From: Cloeon dipterum
Lineage: Eukaryota > Arthropoda > Insecta > Ephemeroptera > Baetidae
Reading direction: 5' to 3'
NCBI RefSeq assembly: GCF_949628265.1
Contig: NC_088789.1
Span: forward strand, 29,319,883 to 29,383,882
Length of the DNA stretch: 64,000 bases
Shown here: piece after piece, positions 19,590 through 50,396 of the stretch
How positions within the stretch are numbered: position 1 is the first letter of the stretch
Layout: each line of letters starts with the position of its first letter
The notes under the pieces: model-generated
The model's input: the letters and a program-made list of their open reading frames with translations, nothing else
Database searches by the model: none
What the model was told of the DNA's origin: nothing
Position numbers and translations under genes: made by a program

Positions 19590-19956
19590 AAATAAAATTT
19601 GTTACCGAAACAGATGAACAGGAATCTCGTAAATTAGGGCCGCTTTACCAACAGCTTATCTAAAAAATGCGAATAAAACAAATAAATTATTTATAATCCC
19701 AAAAATATTACATCAAAAACAACAAATTCACACAACAAATCTTTATTCATTTTTCATGAAAATATGTTTGAAAAGGCAAATCAAAGTCTAAAGTTTTGTT
19801 TGTGTTTTACAAACTATTATTATTCTCAGTGTTTTCAAAAGATACGTCAGCTCCAAGAAGTAGCAAACGATCAGTTCATTCGCCTGCGCACTCGCGATCA
19901 GCAGACATCAAAAGATATTTTTCCCTCTCTGGAGCGCCGCACATTACTCGCTTAAA
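19590..19956 (+). promoter_or_regulatory. E1 upstream block
   Basis: Shares sequence with the blocks upstream of E2 (26690-27312) and E3 (35180-35772), but retains only their right part. A TCAGTT initiator-like motif (about 19880) precedes TTCATTCGCCTGCGCACTCG, conserved in all three. Transcription of E1 may start there. Confidence 0.45.
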
Positions 19957-20210
19957 ATGTCCACCACTGGTTACATCCTTTTCGATTCCTCACTCTTCAT
20001 ATTTTTACTAGTGGTTGCTGTAATAATCCTCCTCGTTGTCGCAGCCAGCTCCAAACATATCCTGATTAAGGCAGACCTCGTTAGAGTTATTGTGTATAGA
20101 CACAAAAGGTAAAATATTATTTTGTCTTTTCATCCAAAGTGTTCGAAATTATTATAAAATTTTTATTTTTCAGCAACAGAATCCAAGCTGTACCAAAGGA
20201 AGTAGTTTAA
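19957..20210 (+). CDS. Small single-pass membrane protein E1
   Basis: Two exons, 19957-20108 and 20174-20210, encode 62 aa. The N-terminus MSTTGYILFDSS is followed by one strongly hydrophobic helix (about residues 12-32, FIFLLVVAVIILLVV), then a basic tail (KADLVRVIVYRHKSNR) and PKEVV. There is no cleavable-signal pattern, so a membrane-anchored micropeptide is likely. Right after the stop, at 20220, comes a strong donor GTGAGT, and the next good acceptor (CTCTTTCAG, about 20682-20690) is in front of D1. The transcript could therefore continue into D1. AATAAA motifs at about 20293 and 20333 would allow a separate, shorter mRNA. E2 and E3 are close copies. Confidence 0.7.
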
Positions 20211-20782
20211 ACATAGTCGGTGAGTGCAACCTAGCTAGACTTTCAGAGTAAATATTAAAACAAATATCAATAAAATTATTTCTTTTTAAAGCAATAAATT
20301 AAATTGGTTTATTGAGTTTAGTGTTTGTTAAATAAAGCAAGAGTTTTTATCTCTATAAAGTGCACAATAATGAAATGAGAACCGAGGAATCGTAAAAATT
20401 CAGATTTATCGAAAAAATAAATGATTCCCTCTTTTGTCCCAATGTTGTGGGAAGTGTGAGCAAAATTTACTTCATTCGGGAAATTAATCATACTTTAAGA
20501 AAAAAGTCAGTTGATGCTCGCCAGTTTCTCTTTTTTTCCTCATTTATATATTATTGAATGCTTTACTTTAAGTAAATATAACAAAATTGTTTACTTGAAC
20601 GTTCGATTTGCTAAAATTATGTTTTTCAAGTCAACTTGAACTTTGAAGTTTGGACCTTACTTAAATCCGATCCCCTCCTCTCTCTTTCAGACTAGACACT
20701 TCAGTTCTCACTGAGAATCGAAAGGCAGCAGACACACAGCTACATCCAACTCTCTAATTTTGTGTATCTTAAAGAAGAAATG

Positions 20783-22336
20783 ATGGCTAACGAAGACGCA
20801 GGAAATCCAACCTCCCTGCAGGATGAAGCCACGACGGTCGATTTATCCAACACGGACTATCTCTTCAGGTGCATCGACCGCCTGAGGCCCACTTCCGAAT
20901 GCCCTTACGAGCCGTTTTGCTTCGCCAAAATGCCTCGGACCAGGCGAGAAAATATTCTGAGGCTGCTCGCGTTCGCCAACGACGATGTGGAGCCTCGGCA
21001 CAAGATCCCGGATCCGCGGATGCTGGAGGTTTTTAAGGTTTTGGTGAAGGATCCGATTGAACGGATCGAGTTCATGCCTAATAGCCCTGGACAAGCGGAC
21101 ATGTTTTTCCTGCCTGCGATCGAAGGAGTGGTGGAGAGCAACGCTCACAGCATCAGATTGCTGAGGGTGAACCTGATCTGCCCTAGTTTCTGGTCTCGAC
21201 CCGAGGGACACGCCACTCTCAAGTTCAGAAACCTCCGGGAACTGCGAATGCCTGGTTTTGTTATGAGAACAGACGATTTTGACAAGGTGACCTCGGCCTT
21301 TCAACACTTGACCATCCTCGAAAGCAACCTGCACTTCACCTTGAACAAAGAAACCTTGGCGGTGATGCTGCGGCGTTTGAAAAAACTGAGGAACTTCCTC
21401 TTTGACGTTGTTTCCGACGGGGAGGAATACTGGACTTCGAATAAGCCCACGGAACCAAACCGGTGCATCCCATTCAGCCGGCTCTTGGCGCAGCAGTTCC
21501 CTTTTTTAACCGTAATCGGCTGCGATCCTGACTTGATTGGAGACCGTACGCAGTTCTATCACGAGTGGGAATCCAGTATCTGCCACGTTTTGGATGACAA
21601 CGAAGCTGAGGCGCTGAACGGAGCAAGTGGACTCAAGCACCTGTTCGTCCGGCGTCAAATGCACCCCCGACAGGCAGAGTGGCATTCCGACTCCGCTGAA
21701 ACCCTATTTGTATACGGACTTTTTGGCTTTTTTGAGTGGGAATCGCTCTGCCGGCTGAGGAAGATCAGGAAACTTGTCACAATCAACTGCTGTCCCTCCG
21801 GACAAATGGTACCAAGGTTGCGAGCTTCCGTCAATTCCCAGAAGAATATGCATATGTTTCTTTTGAAAGAGCATCGCGCTCCAGACATCCGTCTTTTCAT
21901 GACAATTAATCCCCTTCCGGCAACTTTGGACGGGATCGTGGAGTTGCACTTCTACGACCTGCCGAAAAACATGAATAGAATGGTCAACGTGATGAGGGCG
22001 CCTGATTTGACGAGCATCCACTTAACCATTCGAAATCTGCAGAAATATAATTTGAAGGATGTCACGGACGCTTTGAGGTCAACAAAATGTGTTGCTCGCA
22101 GTCTAAAGTCCTTGATTGGTAATTAAATTTTGTTTATGTTTGTATAGTTTTTATTTATTTAACATGTTTTCTCCTTTGCAGTCCAGATTCATGAACCTCT
22201 GGATTTGGAGATGCAAGCAATCATGGGTGGCTTTCTCGGAGTCATCTGCCAAAAAGCGCCGAATTTACAAGATTTCCAATTCGTTGACTTTCGGAGCAAA
22301 GATCTCATTAAATCCCACATCGATCTTAAGGAATAG
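20783..22336 (+). CDS. Leucine-rich, LRR-like protein D1
   Basis: Two exons, 20783-22118 and 22182-22336, encode 496 aa; the intron has phase 1 and GT-AG ends. I chose the ATG of MANEDAGNPTSLQDE because D2 and D3 begin at the same codon; D1 also has an ATG immediately before it. Hydrophobic, leucine-rich segments recur (LRVNLICPSFW near residue 125, LKFRNLRELRMPGF near 145, LKKLRNFLFDVV near 198, TSIHLTIRNLQ near 410, NLQDFQFVDFRSKDL at the C-terminus), as in irregular LRR or F-box-associated LRR proteins. The N-terminal RRENILRLLAF region might be a degenerate F-box, which I cannot establish. No signal peptide or membrane segment. AATAAA at 22384. It lies directly downstream of E1. Confidence 0.7.
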
Positions 22337-24612: not shown

Positions 24613-24891
24613 GGTGAGTTTTTCCTCATTAACACTACCTAATGAATCAGTGTTAAAATTTTATGATTAATTTTAAATCAAATAATCGTCTTATAAAAAT
24701 TTAATAGCATTTAAAAAATTAACATTTGAGTTTTAAGGTGATTTATTTAAAAATTTAAAATTTGAAAATATTTGAAAAAAGGATTTTTTTTAGTAAAATT
24801 TTAAGTTACACGCCAACTAGAATATGGTAATTTCACCCCCCCCCCCCCTATACGTCTCGACTTTTTCCGCGCGACCGAGGATTCGCCCCCC

Positions 24892-25760
24892 GGCAACTCC
24901 GGGGTGCACGGCCGCCTCGAGTTGCGGGCGTCCCCGTGACGTGCGGCAACCCTAGGGAGCGAGGCCACCTCGAGTTCGGGGCGTCCCCGTGACAGGTGGC
25001 AACCCTAGGGTGCGCGGCCGCCTCGACTTTGAGTGGTCCCCGTGGCGTGCGGCAACCTTTGGGAGCGCGGCCGACTTAAGTTGGGTCCGGCCGTGTGGTG
25101 TCTGGCAACCCTAGAGTGCGCGGCCGCCTTGAGTTTTTGCCGTCACTACGGCGTGCGGCAACCCTAGGAAGGGCGGCTGACTAAAGTTGGGGCCGGTCGT
25201 GTGGTGTCTGGCAACCCTAGAGTGGTCGGCCGCCTTGAGTTCGGGCAGTCTCTACGGCGTGTGGCAACCCTAGGGTTCACGGCTGCTTGGGGTTTGGGCC
25301 GTCCCTATGGCGTGTGGCAACCCTAGGAGTCTTTGCCGCATTGAGTTTGGCCGTCACTATAGCGTGTGGAAACCCTATGAAGCGCGGCCGACTTAAGTTG
25401 TGGCCGGTCCTGTGGTGTCTGGCAACGCTAGAGTACGCGACCGCCTTTAGTTTTGGTCGTCCCGATGTTGTCTGGCAACCCTAAGAGGCGTGGAAGACTT
25501 AAGTGTTAGGCGTCTGACGGGAGAGTGGCAACCCTAGGGTGGGCGGCCGCCTTGATTTTTGGGAGTCCCTACAGCGTGTGGCAACCCTATAGTGGTCGGC
25601 CGCCTTGAGTTCAGGCAGTCTCTACGGCGTGTGGCAACCCTAGGGTCGGAGGCCACATTGAGTTTTGGCAACCTCTATGACATGTGGCAACCCTAGGAGG
25701 CGTGGCAGACTTAAGTGTTAGGCGTCTGATGGGAGAGTGGCAACCCTAGGGGGGCAACTG
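24892..25760. repeat. 53-bp minisatellite, 17 motif copies
   Basis: The motif GGCAACCCTAGG, or a close variant, starts at 24892, 24945, 24998, 25051, 25104, 25157, 25210, 25263, 25316, 25368, 25421, 25474, 25527, 25580, 25633, 25686 and 25739. All spacings are 53 except one of 52. Each unit also carries GCGGCCGCC-TTGAGTT-like and GTCCCTATGGCGTG-like parts. Units differ by about 10-25 percent, so the array is old or not homogenised. Confidence 0.9.
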
Positions 25761-25857
25761 ACTCCAGTTGGGGGTAGCTACGAGGATGCGGCCGCCCGAC
25801 TCGGGTGCCAGACAAAACTTATTGGCAAACTCTGGGGTTATGGCAACCCTATCGGCG

Positions 25858-27312: not shown

Positions 27313-27561
27313 ATGTCCACCACTGGTTACGTCATTTTCGATTCCTCACTCTTCATATTTTTGCTAGTGGTTGCTGTAATTATCCTCCTCGTTGTCGCAG
27401 CCAGCTCCAAACATATCCTGGTTAAGGCAGACCTCGTTAGAGTTATTGTGTACAGACACAAAAGGTAAAATATTATTTTGGCTTTTCCAAGGTTCGAAAT
27501 TATTACATAATTTTTATTTTTCAGCAATAGGATCCAAGCTGTACCAAAGGAAGTAGTGTAA
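27313..27561 (+). CDS. Small single-pass membrane protein E2
   Basis: Exons 27313-27464 and 27525-27561 encode 62 aa, differing from E1 at a few positions (MSTTGYVIFDSS; HILVKADL). The hydrophobic helix and basic tail are kept. As in E1, a GTGAGT donor follows the stop at once (27571) and a TCTTTCAG acceptor (about 28032-28039) precedes D2. The intervening sequence also keeps an AATAAA (about 27653). Confidence 0.7.
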
Positions 27562-28130
27562 ACATAGTCGGTGAGTGCAACCTAGCTAGACTTTCAGAGT
27601 AAATATTAAAACAAAAATCAATTTAATTAAATTTTTTTACAAGCAATAAATTAAATTGGTTCATTGAGTTTATTGTTTGTTAAATATAGCAAGAGTTTTT
27701 ATCTCTACAAAGTGCACAATAATGAAATGAGAACCGACAAATCGTAAAAATTCAGATTTATCGAAAAATTAAATGATTCCCTCTTTTGTCCCAATGTTGT
27801 GGGAAGTGTGAGCAAAATTTACTTAATTCGGGAAATTAATCATACTTTAAGAAAAAAGTCAGTTGATGCTCGCCAGTTTCTCTTTTTCTATATTTCTATT
27901 TAAATTGACGCTTTACTTTAAGTAAATATAACAAATTTGTTTACTTGAACGTTCGAATTGCTAAAATTAATTTTTTCGTATCAACTTGAACTTTGAAGTT
28001 TGGACCCTACTTTGAATGCAATCCCCTCTCTCTTTCAGATTAGACGCTTCAGTTCTCACTTAGGATCGAAAGGCAGCAGACACACAGCTACGTCCAACTC
28101 TCTAATTTTGTGCATCTTAGAGAAGAAATC

Positions 28131-35772: not shown

Positions 35773-36028
35773 ATGTCCACCACTGGTTACATCTTTTTCG
35801 ATTCCTCGCTCTTCATATTTTGGCTAGTGGTTGCTGTAATAATCCTCCTCGTTGTCGCAGCCAGCTCCAAACATATCCTGATTAAGGCAGACCTCGTTAG
35901 AGTTATTGTGTATAGACACAAAAGGTAAAATATTATTTTGGCTTTTCCAAAGGTTCGAAATTATTACATAATTTTTATTTTTCAGCAATAGGATCCAAGC
36001 TGTACCACAGGAAGTAGTGCAAACATAG
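35773..36028 (+). CDS. Small single-pass membrane protein E3
   Basis: Exons 35773-35924 and 35986-36028. The normal stop TAA is CAA here, so the protein gains two residues (VVQT) to a TAG at 36026-36028, 64 aa. One helix position changed to W (FIFWLVV). The donor GTGAGT after the stop is retained (about 36031) and the D3 acceptor lies near 36500. The AATAAA present in E1 and E2 within the spacer is AATACA here, which would weaken a separate E3 polyadenylation. Confidence 0.7.
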
Positions 36029-36587: not shown

Positions 36588-38140
36588 ATGGCCAACGAAG
36601 ACGCAGGAAATCCATCCTCTCTGCAGGATGAAGCCACGACGGTCGATTTATCCAACACGGACTATCTCTTCAGGTGCATCGACCGCCTGAGGCCCACTTC
36701 CGAATGCCCTTACGAACCGTTTTGCTTCGCCAAAATGCCTCGGACCAGGCGAGAAAATATTCTGAGGCTGCTCGCGTTCGCCAACGACGATGTGGAGCCT
36801 CAGCACAAGATCCCGGATCCGCGGATGCTGGAAGTTTTTAAGGTTTTGGTGAAGGATCCGATTGAACGGATCGAGTTCATGCCCAAAAGCCCTGGACAAG
36901 CTGACACTTTTTTTCTGCCAGCGATCGAAGGAGTGGCGGAGAGCAACGCTCACAGCATCAGATTGCTGAGGGTGAACCTGATCTGCCCTAGTTTCTGGTC
37001 TCGACCCGAGGGACACGCCACTCTCAAGTTCAGAAACCTCCGGGAACTGCGAATGCCTGGTTTTGTTATGAGAACTGACGATTTTGATAAGGTGACCTCG
37101 GCCTTTCAACATTTGACCATCCTGGAATGCAACCTGCACTTCTCCTTGAACAAAGAAACCATGGCGGTGATGCTGAGGCGTTTGAAAAAACTGAAGAACT
37201 TCCTCTTTGACGTTGTTTCCGACGGGGAGGAATACTGGACTTCGAATAAGCCCACGGAACCCGACCGGTGCATCCCATACAGCCGGCTCTTGGTGCAGCA
37301 GTTCCCTTTTTTAACCGCAATCGGCTGCGATCCTGATTTGATTGGAGACCGTACGCAGTTCTATCACGAGTGGGAGTCCAGTATCTGCCACGTTTTGGAT
37401 GACAATGAAGCTGAGGCGCTGAACGGAGCGAGTGGACTCAAGCACCTGTTCGTCCGGCGTCAGATGCACCCCCGACAGGCAGAGTGGCATTCCGAATCCG
37501 CTGAAACCCTCTTTGTTGTCGGACTTTCTGGCTTTTTTGAGTGGGAATCGCTCTGCCGGCTGAGGAAGATCAGGAAACTTATCACGATCGATTGCTGTCC
37601 CACCAGGCAAATGGCATCAAGGTTGCGAGTCTCCATCAATTACAAGAAGAATATGCAAATTTTTCTGGTGGAAGAGCATCGCGCTCCAGACATCCGTCTT
37701 TTTATGACAATTAATCTCCTTCCTGCAACTTTGGACGGGATCGTGGAGTTGCACTTCTACGACATGCCGAAAAACATGAAAAGAATGGTCAACGTGATGA
37801 GGGCACCTGATTTGACGAGCATCCACTTAACCATTCGAAATCTGCAGAAATATAATCTGAAGGATGTCACGGACGCTTTGAAATCAAGAAAATGTGTTGC
37901 TCGCAGTCTTAAGTCCTTGATTGGTAAATATATTTTGTTTATGTTTGTGTGGTTTTCATTTATTGACTATGTTTTCTCCTCCCAGTTCAGATTCAAGAAC
38001 CTCTTGATTTGGAGAAGCAAGCAATCATGGGTGGCTTTCTCGGGGTCATCTGCCAAAAAGCGCCGAATTTACAAGATTTCCAAATCGTTGACTTTCGGAG
38101 CAAAGATCTTGTTAAATCCTATATTCATCTTGAGGAATAG
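36588..38140 (+). CDS. Leucine-rich, LRR-like protein D3
   Basis: Exons 36588-37923 and 37986-38140 give 496 aa, the same as D1. The intron is open in all of its frame here, so an unspliced reading would give a different C-terminus; the conserved phase-1 junction restoring VQI-EPLDLE in all copies supports splicing. Differences from D1 are scattered substitutions. The ATG context (AAAAAATGGCC) is good. AATAAA near 38181. It follows E3 at the same spacing as in the other two E-D pairs. Confidence 0.7.
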
Positions 38141-39691
38141 TATAGAATATGTGATGACAACATTTATGAGTTAGACTGTTAAATAAACACTTGTGATGAA
38201 AAGTAACAGAGAAAAATTCTTCTTTATGCACCTTACCTGGGATTGTACAAAAATTAAAAATTTTGATTACTTTCGAGATGGTAAAATGGTTGAATTTATC
38301 CCAAGTCCATTCCAATATAGGATATAAATTGAGATAGGAATTTTGAAATAGGAAATATTTGAGGTTTTCCGGATTCATCACCACATCAGGATAAGCTTTG
38401 CCGTTGAGAGTTACACATGACAAGAAGCACTCGTCAAACTAGACTTTTGTTGACAATCCAATTTTATGTGTGTGATGCTCTCTTTGTATAAAGGAGACAA
38501 TGGATGTTGTACAAAGATAATAGTTCTGTCATCAAGTTTCCATGTTATTTGAATTTTTTCATTGATTTATGCGTTCAATTAACCTGATTTTCATTAGTAT
38601 TTTTTTTCTCAAAATTCATTTTTACGATCAGAAAAGCATCTAAAAGATTCATAAAATTGGTAAATTTGTATTACACCACATAATTAAACGACTGATAATA
38701 CAAGACAAATTATTAAACAACTTTTAACAGGTTTGAGTTGTCTTATCATTAACAAAGGCTGACATGGCTATACACACATATATTTGTTAAAAAAGTATCG
38801 GGTAATTTTGATAAATGTTATTTGTTGAGAAAATTCCACTCTGAAGAGTATTTTGAATCGTTTGAATTCCCTTCAATCGTCTGAGAAATATTGCTTTGAT
38901 TATAAAGGCAGCGGAATCCGTGTTCTTCGAATTTTGAATTATCACGGAAACAGGCAGTATTTTAGTGCCTGCCACCTGGTGGCGTTAACCTTTACCCTGA
39001 GTTAACCTGTGCGCCCATGCGTACTGCAGGTTTAGTCATAAAACGATTATTCCATTTCTACCAGCCGAACGATAAGCAGCTATCGTGTTCGCTCACAAGG
39101 CCAGTCAAATTTGGTGCTTCGCTCTCGCACGCACGTAAGAAAAATATTATTATATTTTAATTAACCTTATCACGAAGTGATTGAGTCTTATTCAAAATAT
39201 CAATAAATCGATCATTTATTCCAGTACGGTGACCTTGCCCGTGAGAATTCCTGGAGTAAATTAAATATTGCATTCGTCTCGTTAAATTGACCTTCCCATT
39301 AATTTGGGGTAAGAAATTTATTTTATTTATTTGCTGAGATGTTTAATTTATTATTAACCTTAATATTGTAATTTTTTAATATGTTAATTAATGATTTTAT
39401 GACTCTCCGTAAATCCTCAAATTCTTTGTTGCATTCTAAATGTTTGGCATTATTGACTGAATTATTGTTTGTAATTCCAGATCAAATCTTGGGACGAACA
39501 AATAACTCTTTTATTCTGAATATTCAGGGAATTCAGATTCCTTTTCCCCAAAGTGGAAGTATGTAAATTATTTCTTTAAAAAATCCTAAATCTTCAATTG
39601 TTACTATAAACATCGAGATTTTTTTTATACACATCTTTTTAACGAATTTTATGAACTTCTTCCCACAGAGTTCAAGATTTTGAGGAAGAAA
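38141..39691. other. D3 3' flank, C3 promoter and 5' UTR exons
   Basis: Near-copy of 29687-31230. Untranslated exons of C3 probably end at 39134, run 39225-39308 and 39481-39558, and join the acceptor at 39661-39668. No other gene. Confidence 0.5.
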
Positions 39692-41059
39692 ATGGTTTTG
39701 TCATTCATGAGCTTCCAAGAAACGAAGCGTTTCCTAGTTAAAACGACAACTGGCCTGACGCCTTTGATGCTTGTAGCCAAGGAAAGTGACCTGAAGCACT
39801 GCCTTGAATTGGTTGAAAAATCAGGCGAAAGGGCTGATTCAACAACAGAATTCGGAGTAACCCTGCTTCACATTGCTGCAATGAACAAATCTGATGGAAT
39901 GGATATAATCCGTTATTTCACGCTTGAAGCAGGGCTCGATTTGGAGAAAAAAGATGCTGATGGCGAAGAACCAATCCACTATGCGGTTCGGCTGGCTAAC
40001 TTTGAGCGAGCAAAGGAACTGCTGATTCTCAGAAACAACTTATCGAATATACTCCACTACTTCGTCACAGAAAATAACTTGAAGTTCAGCAAGATTGTCC
40101 ATCAACACGACGGCGAGCTGGTTAAGGAATTCGACTCCAAGGGTAGATTGGCCCTCCACATCGCAGCCGAATTTGCTGATCCGGAAATGGTCAAGTGGCT
40201 TGTTCGCGAGGCTGGAGTCGACGTCGAGGCCCTGAGCAAAGACAAGTCGACAGCTTTGCACTTCACGGCGCGAAACAGCCAAATCCGATACGCAAGAGAA
40301 ATGATGGTGTTTTTCTTGAGTAAAAAGTTGAATAAGTACGCCAAAAATGAGTCTGGAGAAACGCCAATGCACGCAGCACTTTCCGTGGAAAATGTCAATG
40401 TCGCCGGTGAGTTGTTGAAGGCAGGCGTGAGATTTGAGATGTGTGATGAGAATATTTTAATATACTGCGTGAAGAACAACAAAATCGAAAGTGCCAAATT
40501 TATTTTCGACAAGAATTCGCATCTTTTGAAAGTTGATTCAGCAGGTTGCAATTTACTCCACATTGCAGCAGAGTTTTCGAACAAGGAAATGTGCGAGTGG
40601 ATCGTCAGCAAAAATGTAATCAACCCTAAGGATTTGTGCGCCTCAGAATTGAAATTCACCGTCTTCCACCACGTGGCAAAAAACAAGGCGCACGGGGTGG
40701 AACTCATCAGTTACTTCGTCGGCTTGAAAGTTGATCTCAACGACATTAATGGTCAAAACAAGAATATGGAGACGCCCCTGCACGCTGCTCTGTGCAAAGA
40801 GAACATCAAAGTCGCCGAGGAGCTGCTTAAATTCGGCGCTGATATAAATGTCAAAATTGACAATGACAACCTTCTGCACTTTTGTATCCGCAAAAATAAA
40901 CTCACCAGCGCCAAATTCGTGGCAGGAGTCAAGCCAGAACTTGTGAAGGAAAAATGCTCTGGAGGAGAAACCGCGCTCCAACTGGCCTTGGAACACGCCG
41001 ATCTCGAGTTTTGCACGTTTCTCACTGGAATATATAGGCTCCGTCACCTGCATCGTTGA
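39692..41059 (+). CDS. Ankyrin protein C3, one super-repeat deleted
   Basis: A 455-aa reading frame starts MVLSFMSFQETKRFLVK. Relative to C2 it lacks about 131 residues in frame: the sequence passes from GLKVDLN directly to DINGQNKNMETPLH near 40738-40746. That equals one complete 4-ankyrin super-repeat. Two extra bases before the C1/C2-type stop (GGAATATATAG) shift the last codons, so it ends TGIYRLRHLHR, running into what is 3' UTR in C1 and C2. The remaining repeats are in register, so a folded, shorter solenoid is plausible. Confidence 0.75.
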   Translation: MVLSFMSFQETKRFLVKTTTGLTPLMLVAKESDLKHCLELVEKSGERADSTTEFGVTLLHIAAMNKSDGMDIIRYFTLEAGLDLEKKDADGEEPIHYAVRLANFERAKELLILRNNLSNILHYFVTENNLKFSKIVHQHDGELVKEFDSKGRLALHIAAEFADPEMVKWLVREAGVDVEALSKDKSTALHFTARNSQIRYAREMMVFFLSKKLNKYAKNESGETPMHAALSVENVNVAGELLKAGVRFEMCDENILIYCVKNNKIESAKFIFDKNSHLLKVDSAGCNLLHIAAEFSNKEMCEWIVSKNVINPKDLCASELKFTVFHHVAKNKAHGVELISYFVGLKVDLNDINGQNKNMETPLHAALCKENIKVAEELLKFGADINVKIDNDNLLHFCIRKNKLTSAKFVAGVKPELVKEKCSGGETALQLALEHADLEFCTFLTGIYRLRHLHR

Positions 41060-47342: not shown

Positions 47343-48519
47343 ATTTGAAAAGGATTCGAGTAGTTTGCAGAGAAGATGGAAATCGAACTGCTCAGAGGCT
47401 CAAATGGAATTGAACTGCCTCACACAACTGATTGAGACGCTAAGATTATGTATATTAAACGCTGAGTGGGGACCAGTATTATTGTTAGACAAATAAAAAC
47501 AATTGCACGGCCCCCAGTAATGCGCCAATGATAAATGGGGAACTGAAAAAAACCTTTCGTTCAATGGGAATTAAAAATTGATAGGAGGAGATTTCAATTA
47601 TTTTTTATTGAATAAAAAATCTTTTATAGAGCTCTGTGTATTTAGTTGATTCCATTGGTTTTTCGTAGTCATTTATTGATTTTACCTTCGATTTTATACA
47701 TATTTACAAGCTGCTGGAAATGTTTTAAATTTTTAATTGTGAATTATTTAATTCGCTAGCTACACTTTAAATATATCCGGCGCGTACTTTTATATCACTC
47801 CAATCACAAAGATATGCTACGCAAATATGCAACTATATATAAATCAAATAAGTATATGCTCTTTAAAATATAATAAAAATTATCTACATAACAGTTATTA
47901 ATTTTATAAGATATTCATAAAAATTCAATAAGGTTTGCATAATATTTTAAAATTAAAAGAAATACGAAACAATCATTATAGTAAATAATGAATACCTAAA
48001 AAAATGTTATTATTTTTAATAAATATATATGTAATTTTTAAATTTGTTATGAATAAATTTAATTTAAATTAAAAAACCGAGCCGATAAACTGCCGCCTAT
48101 TATGTATTTTTTGTCTTCCTTTTTGTGATCTCCATTATTTGCTACGCGCCAAACGGTAAAAAATCAGCCAACTGCCAAAAACGCCAGACACAACATAAAA
48201 ACTAAAAATGAAACCGTCTGCTAGCCAAAGAGCCCACCGCTTCAAGCATTCGTGTTTTGCGACCAAGAGAAAGAATTTATTTTAATTAACTGGGATTGTC
48301 TGGTTTGTTTAAAAGAAGATAACATTTTTGTTCTCCTGACGATCACTGACTTTGATCGAGTTTAAGCTCAAAGTTGATGTTTTTGTTTGCCAAACATTGG
48401 AATCGTCACTGCATTTACACAAAACTACTGCTTATTCTTTTATTGTCATTCAACCGAGAGGGACCATAGAGTTAACGCTTTCCTAGCAATTGGTAGCATT
48501 TAAGTTGGAAGGAAGCAAA
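47343..48519. promoter_or_regulatory. Divergent promoter region T5 / A2
   Basis: The T core promoter (TCAGT and TATA-like, reversed) lies within about 47420-47490. From about 48230 to 48519 the A upstream block is present (CATTCAACCGAGAGGGACC). Between them the sequence is AT-rich. The same divergent arrangement is at 54525-55682 and 61687-62842, so T and A genes may share regulation. Confidence 0.5.
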
Positions 48520-50396
48520 ATGTCCAGACTCTTTGTAAGTAAAATATATCTTTCAATCGATAAAAGGTCACAGGATAAATTGATACATTTTTTTCAGCAG
48601 AGAATGAATTCATTCATCGCCATGAAAGATAACGAACGCTTCAACGAGAAGACAGAGTTGGGCGCCACTCCGTTGATGCTCGCGGCCAAAAACAAAGACC
48701 TGAAAAGCTGCGTGGCGCTCGTGGAAAAAGGCCAAGACCCCGAAGCGACCACAGATTTGGGCCTATCGCTTTTTCACTTCGCGGCCGTGAATAAGAGACA
48801 CGGACTGGAAATTGTTTCGCACTTCCTTCGCCAAGGACTCGATTTATCAGAAGCAAAGGACGTAGATGGTGAGGAGCCAGTCCTTTACGCCATCAGGGCA
48901 GGAGACTTTAGCCTCGCCAGGAATATTTTGAAGCTTCAGAATGGGGAAACAAACCTGTTGCTCTTCTTTGTTGCCCAAAACAATTTAAAAATCGTCAAAA
49001 TTATTCACGCAGACGACCCTGAATTGATCAAAAAGCAAGACGCAAAAGGCAATAGTGCCCTCCACCTTGCGGCCCAGTTTGCGGACCTGAAAATGTGTGA
49101 GTGTATCGTCAAACAAGGCGTCGACGTAAGATCTGTGAACGCACTCAAAATGACTGCACTGCACTGCGCTGTGCTGAACGTTAATTATGGGAGAGAAATT
49201 GTCAGGTACTTTGTCGTCCGCTTGAAATTGTCCGTTTACGCCAAAAACAGTTTGAGCGAGACGCCCCTGCACCTTGCCCTTTCGACTGGAAACTTTGAAT
49301 TGGCGCAGCAGTTGTTGGAATTTGGAGTCAAAGTAAAGAGGTGCGGCAAGAACCTTTTGCACTACTGCGTCAAAAGAAATAAGCTAAAAAGCGCAAGGTT
49401 CGTGCAAAGTAGGAACAAATCTCTGATAAACCATCGTGACTCCAATGGCGAAAACGCTCTTCACATCGCAGCTGAGTCCGCGGACCTGGCAATGTGCCAC
49501 TGGCTAATTGAAGAGGGCGTCGACGCCAAGACTTTGGTCCGAGTGAGGAAATCCTCGGCTCTCCATTACGTCGGCTGCAACATATTCTACGGAAAACAAC
49601 TCGTCGCTTTCTTCGTAAGCTTGGGGTTGGATTTGAACAAAATGGACAAGTTTCTCTACACCCCTCTTCACGTCGCTCTGATTAACCAAAATATTGAGGT
49701 CGCTGAGGAGATGGTAAAATTCGGTGCCGACTTTAGAGTAAAATCTGGCCACTTCAATCTGCTGCACTATTCTGTAATTGGCAATGAATTAAAAAGCGTC
49801 CAATTTTTGCATTCCAAGGACCCAGAACTGGTGAAGGAGCTGACACTATTGAGGGAAAACGCTCTTCACTTGGCCGCGAAGCATGCGGACAGAGAAATGT
49901 GCAAATTTCTGTGCGAAGAGGCGGGCGTCAATCCTTTCAGCTCGAATGAGATGAACAACAATGTGTTGCACCTCGCCGCGGCCAACGAAAAACACGGGGC
50001 GGAACTCGTAGAGTACTTTGCCACCGAGAAAGGGGTGGACGTGCACCAGAGAAATGTATCTCTCGAGACCCCCCTACATCATGCTCTTGACCGAGAAAAT
50101 CTGGCCGTCGCTGAGGCGTTGCTCCGGGCAGGCGCCAGCATTAATGTCTTATTGGCTCATGACAGCCTCCTGCACTTTTGCGTTAGTAGAAACAAATTGC
50201 AAAGCGTTAGATTTGTCCTCGAGAAGAATAAAGACATGATCAACGCAATTGCGGCAATTACGGAATGACCGCTTTGCACGTTGCGGCAAAGTTGGGTCAC
50301 CTCGATTTATGCGAGTTTTTGGTCGAGCAGGGAATTGACTTGAACGCAGAAGATGCGTTTAACAACAAGGCGCTAACCTACGTTCCGTTTTATTAA
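48520..50396 (+). pseudogene. Ankyrin protein A2, late frameshift
   Basis: Exon 1 is 48520-48534 and exon 2 starts at 48598. The frame is intact until 50250, where two extra bases (ATTGCGGCAATTAC against ATTGGCAATTAC in A3) cause a stop at 50268. The product would be 561 aa, lacking the final ankyrin repeat; the lost part is still readable in another frame to 50396. All upstream repeats are intact, so a slightly shortened functional protein cannot be excluded. It shares many substitutions with A3 that A1 lacks. Confidence 0.7.

Follow-up and report, generated by a model that had tools for sequence, protein, structure and literature searches.

The locus described here raises the question of whether a short membrane-peptide gene (E) and the longer gene behind it (D) are expressed from one spliced, dicistronic mRNA or as two separate neighbours. 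It lies in a 190 Mb genome of 10 contigs, in a window of 64,000 nucleotides (C4:29319883-29383882), which is the whole stretch of DNA analysed and to which positions refer unless a contig is named. E is followed by D on the + strand in each of three modules of approximately 3 kb apiece. DNA identity among the modules is 90-91%, indicating that they are recent duplicates, and signals found between E and D in "all three" therefore count as nearly one observation. The genes of the modules are as follows.

19957..20108, + strand: E1 exon 1, a membrane micropeptide ORF (62 codons together with exon 2)
20174..20210, + strand: E1 exon 2, including the stop codon
20783..22118, + strand: D1 exon 1 (496 codons together with exon 2; a further ATG, in frame, at 20780)
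22182..22336, + strand: D1 exon 2, including the stop codon
27313..27561, + strand: E2, two exons (27313-27464 and 27525-27561), intact, 62 codons
28131..29686, + strand: D2, a frameshifted copy, 127 codons and then a stop
35773..36028, + strand: E3, two exons (35773-35924 and 35986-36028), 64 codons, with a different stop
36588..38140, + strand: D3, two exons, 496 codons, intact

Both ORFs are intact in modules 1 and 3, and D is broken in module 2. A sequence-only reading of this DNA had described a 62-codon micropeptide followed by a 496-codon protein; E has 62, 62 and 64 codons and D has 496 in two of the three pairs, but D2 stops after 127. The frameshift of D2 is in its first exon, yet E2 and both adjoining splice-like sites are intact. 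Elsewhere in the window, an array of units of approximately 53 bp occupies 24873-25807 (units 62-75% alike to a reference stretch), and related long ORFs are present whose translations are ankyrin-repeat-like as judged by eye. They include ORFs at 39680-41059 (459 codons vs 580-584 in its tandem sisters) and 48490-50268 (592 vs 634-650), and some copies in this ankyrin-like array look truncated. A 30-base array of TTAGG telomere repeats was unmatched.

Three sites between E and D bear on a possible joint transcript.

20220..20225, + strand: GTGAGT donor-like site, 9 nt past the E1 stop (copies begin at 27571 and 36032)
20293..20298, + strand: AATAAA, possible poly(A) signal of E (module 2 also has AATAAA, module 3 has AATACA, and an ATTAAA lies close by in every module)
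20669..20690, + strand: pyrimidine tract, in which a CCCCTCC box leads into the acceptor-like CTCTTTCAG (GG in place of the AG in the fourth close copy, D4; CCCCTCC is common to some E-less D relatives)

The donor, previously placed about ten bases past the E stop in all three pairs, is present in each module in the context TCG/GTGAGT, at 9 nt in modules 1 and 2 but at only 3 nt in module 3, because the E3 frame reads on for two codons to a TAG. The acceptor proposed about 90 bp before D was confirmed: CTCTTTCAG ends at 20690, 28038 and 36500, which is 92, 92 and 87 nt 5' of the D start. This sequence occurs four times in the window against 0.45 expected, and none of 100 shuffles reached four; three of the four are the module sites, which are duplicates of one another. 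Its tract is 11/11 pyrimidines, and a YAG with such a tract is found seven times on the + strand of the window, three times at these sites. GTGAGT is found 26 times on the + strand and eight times on the - strand. At the donor, a run of 52 alignment columns (20209-20260) does not vary among the modules; 47 of them belong to the shuffled noncoding set, and a run of at least 45 has P=0.0015 in shuffled columns, a test that ignores clustering and gene conversion. The donor and acceptor signals are better than random sequence. In a genome search allowing up to three mismatches, the 32-mer context of the donor was present only in the three modules. The donor sits in the short stretch between an E unit, as homology to a solo E copy (E4) ends at 20212, and a D unit, as homology to D4 starts just past the donor at approximately 20241. 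Poly(A) signals were dropped as a discriminator between models, as AATAAA and ATTAAA are common in this AT-rich region, with a + strand density of 3.8 per kb over the window; every module has one between E and D, and so does the DNA upstream of D4.

Copies of D outside the modules provide a comparison over longer divergence. A search of the genome with the D1 protein gave 24 matches, consisting of nine exon pieces of D1-D4, 14 diverged loci that were examined, and C1:32700751, which was left out. D4 (C4:29397354-29395801, - strand) is 93% identical over exon 1, with no stop inside either exon match. Its upstream DNA is 73% identical to the modules, compared with 89-91% among the modules themselves. 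In a four-way alignment, the acceptor AG is replaced by GG in D4 (CTCTTTCGG), which retains a TAG 6 nt downstream as a possible substitute acceptor. Upstream of the 15 D loci outside the modules (D4 and the 14 diverged), no open-frame match to E was found in the 1480 nt before the match (approximately 1.2-1.5 kb before the ATG), extended to 3-4 kb in four. This search returned one E-like tblastn hit, at L030, which is weak (E=0.081) and contains stop codons, and a hydrophobic 49-codon ORF 835 nt upstream of another diverged D (L026) is without similarity to E. The arrangement and its splice signals are thus not kept across D copies, with D4 lacking both E and the acceptor AG.

Exon 1 of D4 differs from D1 and D3 at 8-9% of synonymous sites, and D1 from D3 at 11%. 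Across the locus (L009/L007, C4:29395801-29397936, - strand), this close exon is preceded by noncoding DNA of only 73% identity, which points to gene conversion between copies of D. Exon 1 nonsynonymous/synonymous ratios, computed for six pairs, were 0.22-0.42; with the three rows involving D2 left out, they were 0.32 (D1-D3), 0.42 (D1-D4) and 0.36 (D3-D4). The best Pfam match of D, LRR_At5g56370 (E=0.0016), scored 18.6 bits against a cut-off of 27 and is below the threshold for membership of that LRR family; among PDB sequences, D had no match at E<=1. The positions and orientation of E4 and D4 fit a single module split by inversion (E4 homology ends at C4:29406840 on the + strand, D4 homology begins at 29397936 on the - strand), but their divergence does not, since the upstream DNA of E4 is 91% and that of D4 73% identical to the modules, and the inversion was left as an idea.

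The sequence-only reading had also mentioned that a TTCAGTT just past the acceptor could be a separate D initiator, and this has become the better supported alternative, with the motif invariant together with a downstream hexamer in the E-less D4. The two putative core promoter elements are listed below.

20700..20706, + strand: TTCAGTT, resembling an initiator, upstream of D1, with its A at 20703 (A of the copies at 28051 and 36513; invariant in 4/4 close D copies)
20730..20735, + strand: AGACAC, DPE-like, +28 from the initiator A (invariant and at the same spacing in 4/4 close D copies)

In module 1, TTCAGTT lies 9 nt past CTCTTTCAG. All 13 columns of the two elements are invariant across D1-D4. 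Invariant columns make up 29/36 of the block that holds them, 232/436 of the upstream DNA and 21/49 of the rest of the leader; compared with the 126 columns of tract and leader together, the block gives a hypergeometric P=0.0009, a post hoc value for columns that are not independent. Given the divergence of D4 in its upstream DNA (73%), conservation of the block spans a longer divergence than that among the modules. Initiators of the form TCAGTY and a conserved initiator-DPE distance are described for Drosophila in the available text of PMC1779564, as is dependence on that spacing in PMC8384218. AGACAC matches neither of the DPE motifs (CGGACGT and KCGGTTSK) in the table of the former.

Against the DPE consensus RGWYVT, AGACAC scores 5/6, missing the last letter. 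In the window, the same score is reached at 10 of the 30 TCAGTY sites of the + strand, some of which are repeat copies of one another, at 2/34 on the - strand, and at 5-6% in a control with other offsets. The pairing is thus no rarity on the + strand and is weak when taken by itself. Genome-wide, the spaced TTCAGTT-AGACAC pattern has six matches, of which four are D1-D4, and the reversed control has four. The initiator and DPE pair at 5/6 was absent from all 14 diverged D relatives. The case for a D promoter thus rests on conservation among four close copies and not on the motif match. The CCCCTCC box, a motif chosen after inspection of the sequences, is present at 96-111 nt 5' of the ATG in four of the 14 diverged relatives, with 8-10 of 10 letters matching and a shuffle P of 0.000-0.023. 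These four are 37, 38, 49 and 50% identical and form two related pairs by eye, and CAG directly follows the box in none of them. The box is weaker (8 of 10, P 0.043-0.080) in four near-identical loci and missing in the remaining 6/14. On this evidence, some or all of the pyrimidine tract seems to belong to the D family as an upstream element.

The two-exon ORF of E contains a single, strongly hydrophobic stretch (top 19-residue hydropathy of 3.35 in E1). At least five E copies are present in the genome, and the five found lie in one cluster. Neither E4 nor E5 has a D behind it. They are the solo copies at L006 (C4:29406589, + strand) and L007 (C4:29392898, - strand), in which a common shift ends the frame after 45 codons; the intron acceptor of E4 seems to have been lost as well, and in E5 the sequence passes at that acceptor directly into DNA resembling what follows D. 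An initiator-like TCATTCG precedes E at 19876 and 27236 and is TCATTCT in module 3. It is the INR1 motif of Drosophila in the table of PMC1779564, and it is common in the window (18 vs 10.8 expected).

The E-D question would be moot if E were not a protein gene and its hydrophobic ORF were incidental. Such a reading accords with the few copies found (a lower bound) in their single cluster, the 45-codon frames of E4 and E5, nonsynonymous/synonymous ratios of 0.94-1.88 for E4 and E5 against E1-E3 and each other, the lack of any Pfam match above the cut-off, and ratios of 0.54-0.69 for E1-E3 over codons 7-45 alone. We consider it unlikely, given that the ORFs of E1-E3 remain intact across an intron, that their ratios over the whole ORF are 0.16, 0.32 and 0.64, each on only nine differences, and that the hydrophobic core is nearly invariant in all five copies; for selection on E, the changes are too few to decide.

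If E is a gene, a regular dicistronic mRNA would be made by splicing the donor past the E stop to the D acceptor, with D translated by reinitiation or internal entry and possibly having its own promoter as well. Beyond the donor and acceptor of all three modules and the identical run at the donor, this reading has the spliced spacer in its favour: it would measure 101, 101 and 90 nt and lack an ATG except in module 1, where the sole ATG is in frame with D. Canonical nonsense-mediated decay would not be set off by the junction as such. The sequence-only reading held that a donor past a stop codon would normally trigger it, and this does not stand, as the canonical rule asks for a stop that precedes an exon junction by 50-55 nt (PMC4770240) and a junction at 3-9 nt is too close. 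Drosophila, according to the available text of the same source, defines premature stops without need of introns. In an E-D mRNA, decay would instead be triggered by the D intron, which lies approximately 1.4 kb further on, and by the length of the 3' region. Dicistronic genes are moreover a known class, with 159 pairs in D. melanogaster, many also having monocistronic forms (PMC4528330). Set against this, the frames of D4 and of the 14 diverged D relatives are open, with no E detected alongside; the acceptor AG is lost in D4; the donor context was confined to the three duplicates in the genome search; and D2 is broken despite an intact donor and acceptor. AAAATG is a good start context, and it is the one at which E begins. 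Leaky scanning past E should then be poor, and translation of D would depend on internal entry or on reinitiation once the 62-64 codons of E had been read. We regard a regular dicistronic mRNA as quite unlikely.

In its full form, as a true dicistronic gene with a 62-codon micropeptide and a 496-codon protein on one spliced mRNA, an intron 3-9 nt past the first stop and a second D promoter overlapping the acceptor, the proposal appears distinctly improbable; acceptor choice and promoter choice would then compete within 15 nt, and a testable case of promoter/acceptor overlap would be added to the known class. Alternatively, CTCTTTCAG may serve D through an upstream noncoding exon of its own or a trans-spliced leader. 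An acceptor 87-92 nt 5' of D with no obvious partner but the E donor would be so explained, and GTGAGT...TTGCAG in the leader of a diverged D relative (L022, C1:40673432, + strand) may mark a short 5' UTR intron, but the acceptor AG lost in D4 speaks against this reading as well, and we hold it to be very improbable. A search for the nematode SL1 family found no match in the genome, nor in any of 14 control genomes, and says little. Fusion of E exon 1 to D by skipping E exon 2 was rejected, as a stop precedes the D ATG (module 1, by hand).

We conclude that E and D are probably separate adjacent genes, tandemly duplicated as a module, with D having its own initiator and DPE-type promoter. D would be transcribed from this core promoter, starting at the A at 20703, 28051 and 36513 with AGACAC at +28, to give a capped mRNA with a leader of 75-80 nt, the first ATG being that of D. 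E would be transcribed from its own start, approximately 80 nt 5' of its ATG, and end before D; no upstream ATG is present in the predicted leaders of E or D. The positions and conservation of the motifs and the absence of a nearby E from other D genes are observed, and we infer that the motifs act as promoter and terminator. GTGAGT past the E stop and CTCTTTCAG before D would yield at most a minor spliced read-through RNA. This account is favoured because D4 is without E and has lost the acceptor AG while keeping the promoter-like block. Counting against it are the good donor and acceptor sites in all three modules with the identical run at the donor, and the AATAAA behind E, which is not kept in module 3. 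The splicing of E to D into one mRNA, as had been proposed, is borne out insofar as splice-like signals are present and some spliced RNA may be made, probably in minor amounts; a dicistronic reading is not needed, and the comparison leans against it. Separate genes with D on its own putative promoter are the most economical account, and the locus would then be an ordinary local tandem array. The methodological point is that when three recent duplicates show a donor behind a stop codon and an acceptor ahead of the following ORF, the pattern resembles strong dicistronic evidence; here one older copy, without the upstream gene, with the promoter-like block kept and the acceptor AG lost, tips the balance.

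Compared with known systems, E-D is like the Drosophila dicistronic pairs (159 in FlyBase; PMC4528330) in having a short membrane-peptide ORF and then a second ORF on the same strand at a short predicted spliced distance. Unlike in those pairs, D is found elsewhere without E, and a candidate promoter of its own precedes it. The smORF pair sloth1/sloth2 is described in PMC9681215 as two paralogues separated by 5 nt, the first of which has a non-optimal start context, whereas E and D are very different in size and the E start context looks good. D resembles Drosophila initiator and DPE promoters, with their TCAGTY and fixed DPE spacing, in its TTCAGTT and a DPE-like hexamer at +28 in all four close copies; it departs from their consensus in that AGACAC agrees at five of six letters, and its start site is a predicted one. 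Read-through, or conjoined, transcripts of neighbouring genes form a further class, and the likeness here is that the last E donor could join the first D acceptor.
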